From Cyanobacteria bacterium RU_5_0 (lineage in GTDB: Bacteria > Cyanobacteriota > Cyanobacteriia > Elainellales > Elainellaceae), in assembly GCA_012033255.1 (NCBI GenBank), contig JAAUSF010000005.1:1-64000 (forward strand): DNA of 64,000 nt, read 5' to 3'. Both the position numbers and the translations under genes were made by a program. This document shows, one piece after another, positions 389 through 60,988 of this stretch. The notes under the pieces are model-generated. The model was not told where the DNA came from. It saw nothing but the letters and a program-made list of their open reading frames with translations, and made no database searches. Every line of letters begins with the position of its first letter. The first letter of the stretch is position 1.

Positions 389-1846
389 ATGACGACGGGG
401 CTAGTCCTGATAGCAGCGGTTTTAGTCTTAGGAGGGGTGATTGCGACAGTGGGCGATCGCCTCGGAATGCGGGTTGGCAAAGCTCGGCTCAGCCTGTTTA
501 ACCTTCGACCTCGGCAAACGGCAACACTGATTACAATCCTGACGGGTGGTGTGATTTCAGCATCGACGCTGGCAATTCTGTTTGCAGCGAGTGATCAGTT
601 ACGAACAGGTGTATTTGAGTTGGGCAAGATTCAGCGAGAGTTAGGAGAAGCTCGTGAGGAATTAAATCAGACAACCACCGAAAAAGAACAGATTGAAGAT
701 GAGCTAGAAGATTCTCGTGAAGAACAGTTTGCCGCTGAGCGCCAGCTAAAGCAAATTAATCAATCGCTGCAAGACGCCATTGAGCGACAAGACCAAACTC
801 AGGACGAACTCAGCAATACTCAGGCGCTTCTGCAACAAATCCAAGCTCGCTATCTTCAAGCTCAGACGTTATTGAGCAACGTCTCGCAGCAAGCCAACAG
901 TTTGCAAACCGAGATCCAGCAGCTTCAAGGCGATCGCCAAGAACTTATCCGCCAACGCGACCAGGTGAGGGAACAAATTGCTCAGCGAGATGAAGAAATC
1001 GCCAGACGGGATCAGGCGATCCTGGAACGCGAAACTCAACTCCGGCAACTGGAAAACCAGTATGTTTATCTTGCTCAGCAGGTTCAAGATCTTGAGCGAG
1101 AATATCAAGCCTTGCGCGTCGGAAATGTCGCATTGCTACGGAACCAACCCCTTGCTTCTGGCGTGTTTCGCATTGTCACCGCTGACGGGGCAACTCAGGT
1201 GATTGAAGAATTGCTGCTGCAAGCCAATCTGGTTGCGCTTCAGCGAGTTCAACCCAGCGTCGAAAACTCCGACGAACAAGTTATCCAAATCACTAATGCC
1301 GAAGTAGATCAGGCGATCGGTCAGCTTGAAGAAGGCAAAGATTATGTCATCCGAGTGCAGGCAGCCGGAAACTATGTCGTTGGCGAACCTTGCGTTTTGG
1401 CGGGAGAAGCGTGCATTCAAGTGTTTGTGGCGATCGCTCCTAACCAACTGGTCTTTCAACAGGGGGATGTCGTTGCCTCCACAAGGGTTGATGCCTCTAT
1501 CATGCCCGATCAAGAATTGGCAGAGCGCATCCTATTACTGATTGCGGCTGCCCAGTTTCGTGCCCGTCAAGCGGGTGTCCTGGCTGACTCGATTCAAATT
1601 TCTGATAATCGCAGAGAAACCGCGATCGAATTTATCCAGAAGCTAAAACAGTTAAATCAACCGATCGAAATCCAGGCGATCGCGGCTGAAGATGCCTACA
1701 CCGCCGGGGTTCGGATAGAACTGATTGCCGTTCAAAATGGGCAAACGTTATTCAGCACTCAGCAAGGATGGAGTGATGAGGGTGATGAGGGTGAGCAGGG
1801 TGATGAGGGTGATGAGGGTGATGAGGGTGATGGAGTGATGGAGTGA
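389..1846 (+). CDS. DUF3084 domain-containing membrane coiled-coil protein
   Basis: Cyanobacterial DUF3084-family protein of unknown function. Two N-terminal membrane segments (roughly residues 3-22 and 43-65) are followed by a long Glu/Gln-rich coiled coil (about 75-240) and a globular C-terminal domain that characterises the family. The frame is open from a TTG at 368, but the ATG at 389 gives the N-terminus MTTGLVLIAA that I remember for this family, so I chose it. The last ~22 residues are a Gly-Asp-Glu repeat encoded by a simple DNA repeat, and are probably a recent extension rather than part of the domain. The gene stands alone, with a palindromic element upstream. The topology suggests an inner-membrane protein with its coiled coil on one face. 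Confidence 0.85.
   Translation: MTTGLVLIAAVLVLGGVIATVGDRLGMRVGKARLSLFNLRPRQTATLITILTGGVISASTLAILFAASDQLRTGVFELGKIQRELGEAREELNQTTTEKEQIEDELEDSREEQFAAERQLKQINQSLQDAIERQDQTQDELSNTQALLQQIQARYLQAQTLLSNVSQQANSLQTEIQQLQGDRQELIRQRDQVREQIAQRDEEIARRDQAILERETQLRQLENQYVYLAQQVQDLEREYQALRVGNVALLRNQPLASGVFRIVTADGATQVIEELLLQANLVALQRVQPSVENSDEQVIQITNAEVDQAIGQLEEGKDYVIRVQAAGNYVVGEPCVLAGEACIQVFVAIAPNQLVFQQGDVVASTRVDASIMPDQELAERILLLIAAAQFRARQAGVLADSIQISDNRRETAIEFIQKLKQLNQPIEIQAIAAEDAYTAGVRIELIAVQNGQTLFSTQQGWSDEGDEGEQGDEGDEGDEGDGVME
1769..1845 (+). repeat. 9-bp simple repeat in the 3' end of the DUF3084 gene
   Basis: Tandem, slightly degenerate copies of gatgagggt run to the stop codon and encode an acidic Gly-Asp-Glu tail. 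Similar purine-rich repeats occur between genes at 3151-3190 and 12345-12392. Confidence 0.75.
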
Positions 1847-1872
1847 CGGGGAGAGATCAAATCCGATTAATG

Positions 1873-1945
1873 GGCATCTTGCCTGCTAAATTTGGACGGG
1901 CAAACTGCCCATCTCACGGGCAGCCTACAAAAGTTGCACATCGCG
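1873..1945. repeat. Dispersed intergenic repeat, copy 1
   Basis: About 73 bp closely matching 5637-5708 in the same orientation; both contain a gcctgct...ggac...gcccat...cacgggcagcct core. It lies between two convergent genes. A shorter related piece is at 4087-4112. Confidence 0.6.
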
Positions 1946-1955
1946 TGAATCTCGT

Positions 1956-2561
1956 TTAATTACTTTTTCGATAAGGCAGATATCTTGGCTGCCACGGTTT
2001 TTGAGTGGGCAGTGCAGGAACTGGGCGTCTAGTTGATGAATCAAGTTTAGATGAAGCGGTTTCAGACAGACTGAGGCTGAGTGCCCAATTAATTTCATCC
2101 CAGAGAGAATGATGGCAGGTGTAGTAATCCAGGAGAGTTAACCCAATGCTGATGAGCAACGCGGTTACTCCAAATACGAATAGAACAAGTGCCACATGAA
2201 TCAACAGATTCAGATTGAGCAAGGTTCGCAAGGAAATGACTAACGTACTTGTAATACAGAACAGCAAGGCAGAATGAGCCGCTAAAACGCTGTAATGAGC
2301 GATGCGATAGTGTTGGCGTAAGCGGCGTAGTTGAATCTTGAGTTGGATGAGACGACCATCTAGAGGCAATACACGTTGAACTCTCCGGTGCCCCTCCAGG
2401 TTGCCAAATAGCTCAAAGTATTCTTTCTGGATCGATCGCAGCCGATTCACAATTGCAGTATGCCGCATGATGAGCGCACTGAAGACGATCGCACAGGTCG
2501 TGACCAACAACACCGAGTTGAGGATCAGTCGGATCAGTTGATCCGTTTGTTCAATACTCAT
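1956..2561 (-). CDS. DUF2721 family membrane protein
   Basis: 201-aa protein of the DUF2721 family, function unknown. Residues about 10-30 form a first membrane segment. A charged stretch follows, containing the typical 'R..i..Ey..L' region, and then two more hydrophobic segments (about 92-115 and 120-145). The tail is soluble and rich in Ser, Arg and Pro. It is transcribed divergently from the small membrane protein at 2724, sharing a 160-bp upstream region, and converges on the DUF3084 gene. The start ATG at 2561 has no strong Shine-Dalgarno sequence, which is common in cyanobacteria. Confidence 0.75.
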   Translation of the reverse strand: MSIEQTDQLIRLILNSVLLVTTCAIVFSALIMRHTAIVNRLRSIQKEYFELFGNLEGHRRVQRVLPLDGRLIQLKIQLRRLRQHYRIAHYSVLAAHSALLFCITSTLVISLRTLLNLNLLIHVALVLFVFGVTALLISIGLTLLDYYTCHHSLWDEINWALSLSLSETASSKLDSSTRRPVPALPTQKPWQPRYLPYRKSN

Positions 2562-2723
2562 GCTGCCCCTATCAATTGCATAAATCAGTACAATTGTATT
2601 AACTCTACCTCACCCTAAACTCAGTTTTAACAAACTTTGTTTACAAAGATTCTGCTTTGGAAAATAGGTAATCTAGGAATAGTTAAGAATTCTGCATTGA
2701 GATCATCACTCTCTTGATACGGC

Positions 2724-3173
2724 ATGACCAACGTTGAAGATCCGTTCGCCAATTCGCTTGATCATAGCTCTAAAGCATCGATCGACAAAGATCCCGTCTT
2801 TCAGGCACAAATTCAGCGACTCCATCACCTGACTGTTTATGGCAGATGGAGCATGATTATCCTTTTGTGGATTTGCATTGCACCGATCAGTCTATGGAGT
2901 CTGCGCTCAGAAATCGCCCTCTGGGTAGACTACTTTACCTGGACTGCTGTACGATATACCCTCATCTACAACCGACTACAGGCGTTTGGTCTTTCCATCT
3001 GCATTGGTATGACGATCGCCGTGCTGATTTGGCAGAGCCGCAATATTCTCTGGGGTATATCAACCTCTCAACTCCGACACCTCGAAAAACAAGTCTTGAA
3101 AATTCGCCAGCAAGGCAAAAGCCATCCCTTGTGGCAGTGGGTTGTAAGTGGAAGGGTGAAAGATGAAGGGTGA
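2724..3173 (+). CDS. Small two-TM membrane protein, unknown function
   Basis: 149-aa protein that I do not recognise as a named family. A short polar N-terminus is followed by two hydrophobic segments: about residues 41-60 with a Trp-rich 'SMIILLWICIAPISLW' stretch, and about 90-110. A basic C-terminus follows. It is divergent from the DUF2721 gene. The last few codons run into the 14-bp repeat at 3151-3190, so the C-terminal 'VKDEG' is probably repeat-derived. The overlapping frame at 2846-3166 is a shadow. Confidence 0.6.
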   Translation: MTNVEDPFANSLDHSSKASIDKDPVFQAQIQRLHHLTVYGRWSMIILLWICIAPISLWSLRSEIALWVDYFTWTAVRYTLIYNRLQAFGLSICIGMTIAVLIWQSRNILWGISTSQLRHLEKQVLKIRQQGKSHPLWQWVVSGRVKDEG

Positions 3174-56327: not shown

Positions 56328-56812
56328 GTTAATACTCTAATCCACCTTCCCACAGAGATGCAAGCCAAAACGAGTCGATCGCGGCTAAACAAATCCAAGT
56401 TTTTTGAGCAGCAACAAACCACCACCTGAATACACCATGCTTCACTTAGAGTAATTAGCAGAAGCCACCCTAAGATAAGGTAATCACCCTGAGAGAGAAT
56501 ATTAGCTGTCTTATTGAACTAAAACTAGTTTTTATTCTTAAACTTTACATGATCTTTATAAGATGAACTCTAGGCTAAATCAAACCTCTGATAATTCACT
56601 TCGATAGCAGATTTTATCTACATTTTCCTGCTTTTTCAGGCTTATTTCGGTCTCATTGGGACGCTCATTAACGAGTAGTCTGTCATTTTTGTTTTGCGGA
56701 GTGCAGGGGTTTCACCGCTGCCTGGGGGCGTTGTCCCCATCCCCCATTACCCATCAAATCTTGCTTGATAGAGGGCGATCGTGTTTCCTCGGCTTGCTAG
56801 ACCTCAACAGGT
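56328..56812. other. Intergenic region with dispersed repeat copy
   Basis: AT-rich; holds the upstream region of the AAA_35 operon. No gene seen. It includes the repeat at 56680-56770. Confidence 0.5.
56680..56770. repeat. Dispersed 93-bp repeat, copy 2 (inverted)
   Basis: Inverted copy of 15142-15234, ~90 bp with few differences. Confidence 0.7.
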
Positions 56813-57066
56813 TCAGAGGTGGGAATCATCTCGCCATACTCCAACAGGTTGAGCAGAGGTGGGAATCATCGAAGGATCAATTTCAATCCCCAATCCTTGT
56901 GCCACCTGCATCCCGTAATGCACATCTGCACGGAAGAAATGGCAGAGTTGACGCATCTTAAAAATCTCGCCGTGCTTGGCTCAAGCTGCCCAAAATGTCT
57001 TGAACCAACCGTTGCTGTTCGTCTGGTTTCATGAGGCGATACAGATCTCCCGCTTGGGTATAATGC
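56813..57066 (-). pseudogene. Catalase C-terminal fragment, decayed
   Basis: Read on the minus strand, this encodes the end of a haem catalase: 'TQAGDLYRLMKPDEQQRLVQ' and 'DILGSLSQAR', then after a one-base frameshift 'KMRQLCHFFRADVHYGMQVA' and 'QGLGIEIDPSMIPTSAQPVG', stopping at 56813. These segments match the conserved catalase C-terminus (GDLYR...; HF.RAD..YG..VA.GL). The catalytic part (~400 residues) is missing, and a MITE-like element starts 9 bp beyond the break. Non-functional remnant. Confidence 0.75.
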
Positions 57067-57074
57067 AACTAAAA

Positions 57075-57194
57075 TTACAGCGATTTCCAGTAGGATGGAC
57101 ACTGCCCATCCGATCGTGAAACGCTCCATTGATCAAGCGTTGTGGGCGATGCCCACCCTACGATTTGTGGTTTATTGATTTGAAATTGCTGTAA
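57075..57194. repeat. MITE-like element at the catalase break
   Basis: 13-bp ends ttacagcgatttc (57075-57087) and gaaattgctgtaa (57182-57194) are complementary but for one G-T. The interior carries aggatggacactgcccat and gcgatgcccaccct palindromic segments. Confidence 0.65.
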
Positions 57195-57237
57195 GATGAA
57201 AAGCCGCTTGACTTGTCGAATCGCTAAATCTGATGCC

Positions 57238-57356
57238 ACTATATAGCAATCCCAAATCAATTGTGAGAAAACCCAAAGGGGTTTGGGGACTTCGTCCCAA
57301 GGAGGGGGCACTGCCCCCTCCACCCCTTCTTACAAATGATTTAGGGCTGCTATAGT
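57238..57356. repeat. MITE-like element upstream of the T-box
   Basis: Long imperfect ends: actatatagcaatccc at 57238-57253 and tttagggctgctatagt at 57340-57356, extending inward over ~30 bp. The core has ggggacttcgtccc and agggggcactgccccct palindromes. Confidence 0.65.
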
Positions 57357-57389
57357 TGTATTAATTCAATAACCCTTAAAGGCATTGAT

Positions 57390-57660
57390 GGGAACAAGTA
57401 GTTTCTGAGTCGGTGCAGAGCGAGTCAGGGACGGTGTAAGCCTGACCACACGGCAGAAATGAAGATCCTCCCTGAGCCGCCCTCCGAACGAAGTGTTTTA
57501 ATGTGACGATCGCTTTCAGTAGACAGGGACGTAGCCTGCACGTTATAGCGGGAAGTTCTTCCCAATCGGGAGTAACTGCAAAGATTGAAGTTGTAAGACT
57601 TCGATGAAATTGGGTGGTACCGCGCTCACCTCAGCGCCCCAATGTGGAGGTGTAGAGTTT
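57390..57660 (+). promoter_or_regulatory. T-box leader of ileS (Ile-specific)
   Basis: The region reads as a full T-box RNA. 'gggaacaagtagtttctgag' begins the leader (57390-57409). A Stem I follows with 'gagcgag' and 'ggtgtaagcc', and an ATC specifier candidate at 57465-57467. A 'cgttatagcg' linker lies at 57541-57550. The T-box core tgggtggtaccgcg is at 57611-57624. T-boxes sense uncharged tRNA; ATC agrees with the synthetase downstream. After the T-box there is a cacctc/gaggtg hairpin (57627-57632 with 57647-57652) but no U-tract terminator, so control may be at translation. The ribosome-binding site ggaaggga is at 57693-57700. Confidence 0.88.
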
Positions 57661-57711
57661 GCTATTTGCTAACTCTGCAAGGTTTCTACATAGGAAGGGA
57701 GTGCGGTCAAG

Positions 57712-60700
57712 ATGTTTAAAGATATTGAAAAAACGCCAAACTTTTCAGCCCTTGAGCAAACGGTCATTGACTTTTGGAAAACGCGACACATCTTCCAAAA
57801 ATCGATCGACAAGGATGCGCCTCAAGGAAATTTCGTGTTTTACGAAGGTCCACCTACGGCAAATGGGAAGCCAGGCGTTCACCATGTTATCTCTCGTGCT
57901 TACAAAGACTTGTTTCTGCGCTACAAAACAATGCAAGGCTATCGCGTGGAGCGCAAGGCTGGATGGGATACGCATGGTCTGCCCGTTGAGCTAGAAGTCG
58001 AGAAGCGATTAGGCTTTACCCAAAAAGCTGATATTGAAGCATTTGGAATTGCGAAATTCAACGAACTCTGCAAACGATCGGTGTTTGAACGCATCCAGGA
58101 CTGGAAGGCGATGACGGAACGAATCGGCTATTGGCTGGATCTGGAAAACGCCTACATCACTTACGAGAATCAATACATAGAGTCGTGTTGGTGGCTGATG
58201 AAGTCGCTCTGGGAGCGCAATCTGTTGTTTGAAGACTATCGATCGACCTGGCACTGTCCGCGTAATAACACCAGCCTTTCGGATCATGAAGTGGCACAGG
58301 GGTATCGGGATGCTGAAGATCCTTCGATCTACCCTAAATTTCCAGTCCACGTGGCTCAACTAGGAGAACGGGGCTTGTTAGCGAATGAATTGCAGCCGGT
58401 TTATCTGCTGGTGTGGACAACAACTCCCTGGACGCTTCCAGCGAATGTGGCGATCGCCATCAAATCAGATGCAACGTATGGTCTGTTTGAAGCTCCTGCG
58501 AGACACGGAGAGCAAAATCAAAACGATCTCTACATCTTGGCGAGTGATTTGGCGGAGAATGTCTTTGGTAAGGGCAATTATCGGACGCTGAAGACGTTTA
58601 CAGGGGAAGCGATCGTTGGGCTTCGTTATGACCCTATTCTGCAAGGACAGGTGCCAGAGGGAGAAGACCTGACACAAGGCTTTCGGGTGTTAGGTGATGA
58701 CCAGGTGATGATCGATGAAGGCACGGGTGTCTTGCACATTGCTCCTGCCTATGGCGATCTAGAATTAGGGCGAAAGTATCATTTGCCGATGTTGTTCTCA
58801 GTGAATCTGCTTGGGCAGGTTTATCCAGATGTGAAATTGCTAAATGCACCAGAAGGTGAAGGAGCCTACACTGGGAAGTTTTTCAAGGATGCCGATCGCT
58901 TTATCATCCAAGATTTGCTGCAACACAATCTCCTATACCGTGCTACCACTCTCACACACCCCTATCCCTTTAACTATCGGGACAATACACCCCTAATTAA
59001 CTACGCTAAGAAGAGTTGGTACATTCGCACAACCGCCGTTAAAGATCAATTGCTCGAAAATAACTACAAAATCAATTGGCATCCGGAATATATCCGTGAC
59101 GGACGATTTGGAGATTGGTTACGGAATAACATTGACTGGGCATTGTCACGTGAACGCTACTGGGGTGCGCCGCTACCGATTTGGGTCAGTGAAGATGAAA
59201 GTGAACATATCTGTGTAGGGAGTGTTCAAGAGCTTGAGGAATTAACTGGACGTAATTTATCCACGTTAGATTTACATCGTCCTTACATTGATGAAATCAT
59301 TTTTGAACGAAACGGTAAATCGTTCAAGCGCGTTCCCTACACGATCGATGTTTGGTTTGAGTCAGGAGCGATGCCCTATGCTCAGTGGCACTATCCGTTT
59401 GAAAACCAAGATACCCTGGTTCGCAGTTTTCCTGCCGACTACATCTGTGAAGCGATCGACCAGACTCGCGGCTGGTTCTATAGCCTCCATGCGTTAGCTA
59501 CTCTGCTGACGGATATGGGCAATGCGGATCAGCCGAGTGGTGCGTTAGCCACGATCGCTCAAAATTCTCCTGCCTTCAAAAATGTGATTGTCCTTGGACA
59601 CATCGTGGATGAGAAAGGCGAAAAAATGTCGAAGTCTAAAGGCAATGCCGTCGATCCCTGGACGGTTTTGGATGCTCAAGGAGCGGATGCCTTGCGATGG
59701 TATCTTTACAGTGCCAGCCCACCGGAGACGACTAAACGCTTTTCGCAATCACTTGTTGAAGATACTGTCCAAGATTTCCTGATGACCCTGTGGAACACTT
59801 ACAGTTTCCTTGTGCTATACGCTAATTTGGATAACCCAGATTTGAAGCAGGATATTCCGGTGAGAGAACGTCCTGAGATCGATCGCTGGTTAGTCGCCAA
59901 AGTTCAGATATTAATTCGAGATGTAACCGAGAAACTAGACACCTATGACCCAACCAATGCCAGTCGCCTGATCCGCAATTTTGTTGTCAATGATCTTTCC
60001 AACTGGTACGTCCGTCGCAATCGTCGTCGCTTCTGGAAGTCTGAAAATGATTGGGATAAACGTGCTGCCTATCAGACACTTTATGAGGCGATCGTCGTTG
60101 TCGCAAAACTGATGGCTCCAATGGCTCCATTTGTCAGCGAACATCTCTATCAAAATTTGGTGGTGAGTCTCTTTCCAGATGCGCCTGAATCTGTACATTT
60201 AGCCGACTGGGTTCAATGCAAAGAAACCTTCATTGATCCAGTTTTATTATGTGATATGGACACGCTAATTCGTGTGATTGAGTTGGGGCGGGCAGCGCGA
60301 TCGACCGCAGGAGTTAAGGTTTCGACAACCGTTAGCGGAAATCTTAGTGCGGGTTCAGACTGAAACCGAAATCATTGGGCTAAAACGCTTTGAAGACCAA
60401 CTCAAAGAAGAACTTAACGTCAAGCGGGTCACTTATTTAGACCTGACAACTGACTTTGTAGGCTATGTTGTAAAACCCAATTTGCCATTGCTGGGTAAGC
60501 GTTTGGGCAAGCAATTGCCGATGCTGAAGCAGATACTTGTAACGATGGATAGCCATGAGATCGTTCGCAACATTCGCAATCGAGAGGAAACAGCGATCGA
60601 TTTGGATGGAACATGGGTTCACTTTGAACCAGAAGCCTTTCTGATTGAGGTCAAAAGTCCAGACGGATATGTGGCGATCGAAGAGCAGGGCTATCTCGCT

Positions 60701-60988
60701 GCATTGAACACGCAACTCACGCCTGAATTGATCGAAGAAGGGTTAGTGCGAGACACTATTCGGCTCCTGCAAGAAGCCCGCAAAAAAGCAGGGTACGCCA
60801 TTTCCGATCGTATTTATCTTGGCTTGAAAACATCGGGAGTTCTTCTAGAGGCACTCAAGACTCATTTTGCCACGATAAAGAATGAAGTGTTAGCGGAAGA
60901 GATTTGCTTCGAGGAAATAAAGAATGCTGATTACAGTGAATCCGTCAGGATCAATGAAATCGAGATAATATATTGGATGACAAGATGA
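57712..60988 (+). pseudogene. ileS: Isoleucyl-tRNA synthetase, IleRS2 type, frameshifted
   Basis: Class I synthetase charging tRNA-Ile; ~1091 aa if the frame is repaired. Visible: 'FVFYEGPPTANGKPGVHH' with GVHH (residues 55-58) where HIGH is expected; 'GWDTHGLPVELEVEK' typical of the IleRS2/eukaryote-like branch; editing domain about 180-400; 'RYWGAPLPIWV'; KMSKS at 638-642; anticodon-binding domain after 700. At 60320-60322 an extra T in ttt breaks the frame after ~869 residues, and the natural sequence resumes as 'RQPLAEILVRV' to the stop at 60988. The first frame stops at 60363. It may be a true pseudogene, a sequencing error, or a truncated enzyme. IleRS2 usually coexists with IleRS1 elsewhere. 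Controlled by the T-box above. Confidence 0.88.

Follow-up and report, generated by a model that had tools for sequence, protein, structure and literature searches.

A T-box leader preceding an acquired second isoleucyl-tRNA synthetase gene in cyanobacteria: sequence evidence for a deinococcotal origin and a predicted translational switch

T-box riboswitches are on record for Firmicutes, Actinobacteria, Chloroflexi and Deinococcus-Thermus, and for a few Deltaproteobacteria. The leader that precedes an isoleucyl-tRNA synthetase gene (ileS) in a 64,000 nt stretch of DNA from the cyanobacterium RU_5_0 (hereafter the window) raises the question of whether a cyanobacterium bears a T-box, from where it came and on which step of gene expression it may act. 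The original prediction knew of no T-box described as functional in this phylum, and we found no report of a cyanobacterial T-box in the literature searched: the 13 cyanobacterial genomes of a 2008 survey had no T-boxes (PMC2494555), and in a 2013 survey of 255 genomes they were limited to phyla other than cyanobacteria (PMC3766115). Some of the copies described below, those of Fischerella, may already have been flagged by automatic annotation.

When the window was scanned with cmscan against all Rfam families, the T-box model RF00230 was the only match above gathering in the whole 64 kb. It covered positions 57376-57644 of the forward strand with 109.1 bits (gathering 93; E-value 3.4e-23) and spanned the full model (positions 1-219), and no other T-box was found in the 5.88 Mb draft genome. 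The predicted T-box before ileS was thus recovered, together with its core UUGGGUGGUACCGCG (57610-57624, +). The element had been placed at 57390-57660; its true start, 57376, lies 14 nt further upstream and the regulatory part reaches the start codon at 57712. All on the + strand, the leader comprised a full-length Stem I (57382-57477; cmscan structure, with helices 1-5 on the leader alignment), a Stem II with a GAA/AGUA (S-turn-like) motif (57480-57528; cmscan, two-sided changes at 4/6 pairs), a Stem IIA/B pseudoknot in which CCUGC pairs with GCGGG (57530-57552; IIB with two-sided changes at four of its five pairs and 96.7% of cells paired), a Stem III in which all seven pairs had two-sided changes (57584-57605), and the antisequestrator (antiterminator) helix, of which the T-box sequence is a part (57611-57641; cmscan and leader alignment).

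The ATC specifier candidate suggested for Stem I was located as AUC at 57465-57467 (+). This isoleucine codon, which reads tRNA-Ile GAU, fits the downstream ileS gene and was invariant in the 12 aligned leaders, so that the check proposed beforehand, a high-scoring RF00230 match with an AUC specifier, was passed. Also invariant in the 12 leaders was the UGGU bulge (57615-57618, +), complementary to the ACCA 3' end of uncharged tRNA-Ile, for which no binding data exist. This end presumes discriminator A73, which was assumed and not read in the source genome: a sequence pattern and a tRNA family search of the draft assembly recovered no tRNA-Ile from the set of tRNA genes examined, and one candidate from the pattern search was rejected as a chance match. 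Contig C78 of the same genome holds eight tRNA genes of divergent sequence arrayed in less than 1 kb (locus positions 1640-2562).

Over the 12 leaders, two-sided changes were observed at 34 of the 51 pairs of the model structure plus the Stem IIB pseudoknot, and the covarying cells numbered 106, against a mean of 34 after shuffling and a maximum of 28 when the partners were slid. Because of this covariation, chance or a likeness in sequence only is excluded and, judged from its pairings, the leader is a genuine T-box. A weak σ70-like promoter (CTTACA-16-TATAGT, with TG before the second hexamer; 57329-57356, +; 9/12 in a consensus scan) lies 20 nt upstream of the T-box; the region contains two such sites where 0.7 are expected, and the match is no evidence of function. 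Upstream of this promoter-like site, 56800-57350 is non-coding and carries direct repeats (AGGTGGGAATCATC) and an apparent dispersed GC-rich repeat.

The absence of a U-tract terminator, noted in the original prediction, held on closer analysis. Between the T-box and the start codon the longest T run was 3 in the window and 3-4 in all five cyanobacterial leaders, and a terminator scan of the window region found no transcription terminator on the + strand. What defines a transcription-attenuating T-box, a U-tract terminator alternative to the antiterminator, was not met in the window. We propose a sequestrator helix, P0, in which ACCGCGCUC (57619-57627, +) pairs with GAGUGCGGU (57699-57707, +) over 9 bp, ending 4 nt before the start codon (shuffle p 0.0015). 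In each of the five cyanobacterial leaders the core UACCGCG(C) was complementary over 7-10 bp to a strand ending 3-4 nt before the AUG (p 0.0005-0.009), while none of ten Trueperaceae leaders had a P0 (p above 0.2). The Scytonema core, changed from CCGCG to CCGUG, keeps the pairing as G-U in P0. When 169 cyanobacterial pre-start regions were ranked by their match to the core, the top four places went to the four distinct leaders of ileS2 (the gene of the window and its orthologues), and none of the other 165 reached the lowest ileS2 score.

P0 and the antisequestrator share ACCGCGC, and the definition of a translational T-box, a start-hiding helix exclusive with the antisequestrator, was met by all five leaders, in computation only. 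The predicted probability of P0 in the free fold was 1.0 in the five cyanobacterial leaders and 0.05 in one Trueperaceae leader. Forcing the antisequestrator increased the openness of the start region in all five, from 0.22-0.33 to 0.45-0.66; in the window it rose from 0.22 to 0.66, and the response was weakest in Phormidium tenue (0.33 to 0.45). In the absence of tRNA the ON fold is predicted to cost 5.6-10.1 kcal/mol relative to the OFF fold, which would need to be paid by tRNA binding. The evidence for P0 comes from five leaders that all belong to one clade, and two of these are nearly identical. We also considered a leader peptide after GGAGGUG and rejected it, since the start codons and frames differ between the Scytonema copy and the window.

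The conserved start-sequestering helix supports the translational action that had been proposed; in anatomy the leader differs from the actinobacterial class cited alongside, whose Stem I is short where this one has its full length. We conclude that the leader is a translational switch, ON with uncharged tRNA-Ile, its binding, direction and output being inferred. An action on transcription, in which RNA polymerase would be halted by a non-canonical hairpin lacking a U-tract, seems unlikely without being negligible; cyanobacteria have no Rho, and their way of terminating may be different. Ancestral-type leaders do have U-tract terminators: downstream of most of the Trueperaceae ileS T-boxes examined there is a hairpin that ends in GGGGC(G) or a similar sequence, and then a U-rich tract (five leaders named), the usual transcription terminator. 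Moreover, a hairpin of 5-7 bp downstream of the T-box has changed in sequence and remained paired (AGAGUU/AACUCU in the window, AGACUU/AAGUCU in P. tenue), and CACCUC/GAGGUG competes with the antiterminator. The short T runs, the empty terminator scan and the position of the conserved P0 exactly at the start codon speak against this option.

The frame 1 part of ileS2, 883 codons followed by a stop (57712-60363, +; TIGR00392, 894 bits), encodes a type-2 isoleucyl-tRNA synthetase (IleRS2). In its translation, residues 55-58 (57874-57885, +) are GVHH, a swapped class I signature motif that replaces HIGH by exchange of its first and third residues, and GVHH or GIHH was also present in nine relatives. 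The same genome has, on contig C40, a native IleRS1 with HIGH and KMSKS that is 29% identical to IleRS2; the presence of IleRS1 was checked in this genome only, leaving out the other carriers. The gene does encode an isoleucyl-tRNA synthetase, as originally stated, but by the comparison of these sequences it is an acquired second IleRS and not the native cyanobacterial one, and its T-box came along with it from Deinococcota. In 385 further genomes sampled from the phylum, no listed match to the ileS2 protein exceeded 43% identity. The closest PDB chains were 1ile (the best match, the Thermus thermophilus IleRS) and the P. megaterium IleRS2 entries. A plasmid origin was rejected, all plasmid matches being below 60% identity (best 43%), and so was a phage origin, with none in viral contigs. 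The G/AXHH motif is restricted to type-2 IleRS and raises the Ki for mupirocin up to 1000-fold (Brkic et al., PMC10485003), that of Deinococcus radiodurans IleRS2 being 6.6 mM (PMC10485003). The GVHH-type IleRS2 is probably mupirocin-tolerant, a resistance inferred without enzyme data.

The reading frame of ileS2 is broken by a +1 frameshift, where a TTT run (60318-60323, +) contains an additional base. In tblastn with a relative's protein, frame 1 continued through VKV and frame 2 resumed from RQPLAE, and the C-terminal part in the shifted frame (60323-60988, +) is open to its end and 65-75% identical to the cyanobacterial relatives. The dN/dS against the Scytonema copy was 0.062 before the break and 0.079 after it; these low values on both sides indicate a recent mutation or loss, or a sequencing error. 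In Fischerella thermalis PCC 7521, ileS2 is reduced to two fragments (residues 236-325 and 536-806; contig region 4001-5019) and there was no T-box match; P. tenue has, besides its main locus, a degenerate copy that covers the ileS T-box and the beginning of ileS2 (locus positions 1501-1800), without an RF00230 match above gathering. Together, the frameshift, the remnant and the decayed second copy show that the ileS2 locus is dispensable, as expected of a conditional resistance or back-up gene. The same three observations would also fit a switch that arrived with ileS2, no longer works in cyanobacteria and persists as a decaying passenger. We regard this as improbable, given that two-sided changes maintain the pairing of the stems among the cyanobacterial rows too, that the AUC, the UGGU and the core are all invariant, that dN/dS is 0.06-0.08 in both halves of the gene, and that P0 is present and conserved in cyanobacteria only.

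A search of 84,980 species genomes gave as nearest relatives of ileS2 those of Fischerella muscicola PCC 7414 (82% identity), P. tenue FACHB-886 (81%) and an uncultured Scytonema (81%), followed by Trueperaceae (56-67%). The contigs of F. muscicola, P. tenue and the Scytonema MAG bore T-boxes of 97.6-103.2 bits, and a second Fischerella genome had a T-box (99.6 bits) and ileS2 on a 7.02 Mb contig, making four other cyanobacterial genomes with orthologues of the pair, plus the remnant in F. thermalis. The distribution was sparse: RF00230 matched in one of 386 genomes drawn over the cyanobacterial phylum, and an overlapping sample of 391 genomes of another order gave one other match, of a different type. 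The ileS2 locus occurred in 2/36 genomes of the window's own order and in all three Fischerella genomes, once as the remnant; P. tenue appears to be of the same family as the window's genome. The neighbours of ileS2 differed between the window, Phormidium, Scytonema and Fischerella, and within cyanobacteria a shared neighbourhood was found only between Fischerella genomes.

The HIP1 octamer is a hallmark of cyanobacterial genomes. The window contains 33 of these sites where 1.09 are expected, one of them within ileS2 (58450-58457, +), and this excess, together with the close T-box and ileS2 orthologues in other cyanobacteria, indicates that the contig is cyanobacterial, as had been claimed for the rest of the window. 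Contamination by a deinococcotal contig binned with a cyanobacterium, which had been named as a possible refutation, is scarcely tenable and is refuted as far as sequence can do so: the assembly is a draft (269 contigs, 89% complete) and the closest non-cyanobacterial kin are Trueperaceae, but HIP1 is abundant and one of its sites lies in ileS2, the identity of this gene is 81-82% to the Fischerella (a cultured strain included), Phormidium and Scytonema copies against 67% to the nearest Trueperaceae, one copy sits within the 7.02 Mb contig and the neighbour genes change from site to site.

In a tree of 31 IleRS2 built without Deinococcus and Thermus sequences, the five cyanobacterial rows grouped together as a single clade (100/99) that lies inside the Trueperaceae rows (98/94). 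T-boxes were detected in 32 of 39 Trueperaceae genomes, many before ileS; in this family there are also matches in front of a gene for a different class I synthetase (ValRS or LeuRS), which shares 21-23% identity with IleRS2. The nested clade and the frequency of T-boxes in these genomes suggest that switch and gene were transferred together. The simplest reading of these data is a single transfer of the T-box plus ileS2 from a Trueperaceae-like donor and, in view of the differing neighbours, later spread or patchy loss among cyanobacteria. Since Deinococcus and Thermus were absent from the tree, the donor can be placed no more precisely than in Deinococcota, close to Trueperaceae.

In another cyanobacterial genus, six of seven genomes had a T-box-like leader that scored 38-50 bits, short of gathering, and whose Stem I is truncated; the genomes where it occurs measure 8.7-12.4 Mb. 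One of these leaders (locus positions 1501-1708) precedes an ORF (1742-3034) for a non-discriminating aspartate--tRNA(Asn) ligase (NF003483, 471 bits), and the same aspS frame lies downstream of the leader at five other loci. Conserved features are GAC as candidate specifier and a short AACCC...GGGUUUUUU hairpin with a U6 tail. We consider the aspS leader a second, independent cyanobacterial T-box, weaker and not of the ileS2 type.

We think it probable that the T-box and the second IleRS gene it controls came as one package from a Trueperaceae-like deinococcotal donor and form a translational back-up switch. The T-box identity, specifier, covariation, host, donor clade, GVHH, native IleRS1, conserved P0 and lack of a terminator are read from the DNA, and on them the following scheme could be built. 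The native IleRS1 would keep tRNA-Ile charged and the leader would stay in the OFF fold, in which the start of ileS2 is hidden by pairing between the T-box core (ACCGCGC...) and the nucleotides immediately upstream of the start codon. Isoleucine shortage, or poisoning of IleRS1 by a mupirocin-type inhibitor, would supply uncharged tRNA-Ile, whose anticodon would pair with the AUC in Stem I and whose free ACCA end with the UGGU bulge. With the antisequestrator formed, P0 would open and the GVHH-type IleRS2, predicted to be mupirocin-tolerant, would be translated as a back-up. No experiment supports the tRNA binding, switching direction, translational output or resistance, all of which are inferred.

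With less assurance, we lean towards a history in which T-boxes entered cyanobacteria at least twice (with ileS2 from Deinococcota, and as the aspS leader), the ileS2 one losing its terminator and gaining the core-start helix, to become a translational T-box with full-length Stem I that makes a mupirocin-tolerant IleRS inducible. A riboswitch would then have crossed from one phylum to another along with its cargo gene and, it seems, with a swapped expression platform, a case relevant to the old debate on vertical versus horizontal spread of T-boxes. The system links a T-box to a resistance-type synthetase and would give a native tRNA-responsive switch for cyanobacterial engineering.

As to known systems, the GVHH motif and type-2 class resemble the G/AXHH enzymes of D. 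radiodurans and Streptomyces griseus (PMC10485003), from which this IleRS2 differs in its T-box control and in its cyanobacterial host, cyanobacteria being unmentioned in that paper; its resistance is unmeasured. Like MupA and MupB it is a second, acquired IleRS2, with 40% identity; unlike these plasmid enzymes it is T-box-controlled, was not found on a plasmid and stays below the NCBIfam exception model cut-off of 1900 (719 bits, for MupA, and 703 bits). The transcriptional ileS T-boxes of Trueperaceae have the same stems, AUC, UGGU, Stem IIA/B pseudoknot and gene clade, but those examined mostly have the GGGGC(G) hairpin with U-tract and no P0, whereas the cyanobacterial leaders have P0 and no terminator. 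With the actinobacterial class II T-boxes (Mycobacterium tuberculosis, Nocardia farcinica) they share the ileS target, Stem II S-turn, IIA/B pseudoknot and hiding of the ribosome site (PMC1262725, PMC7583486). Stem I is shorter in translational T-boxes (PMC7778990), a feature that the window's leader, with a Stem I complete against RF00230, does not share; and, in contrast to class II, it is the T-box core itself that would cover the start, where there is little Shine-Dalgarno sequence to hide.
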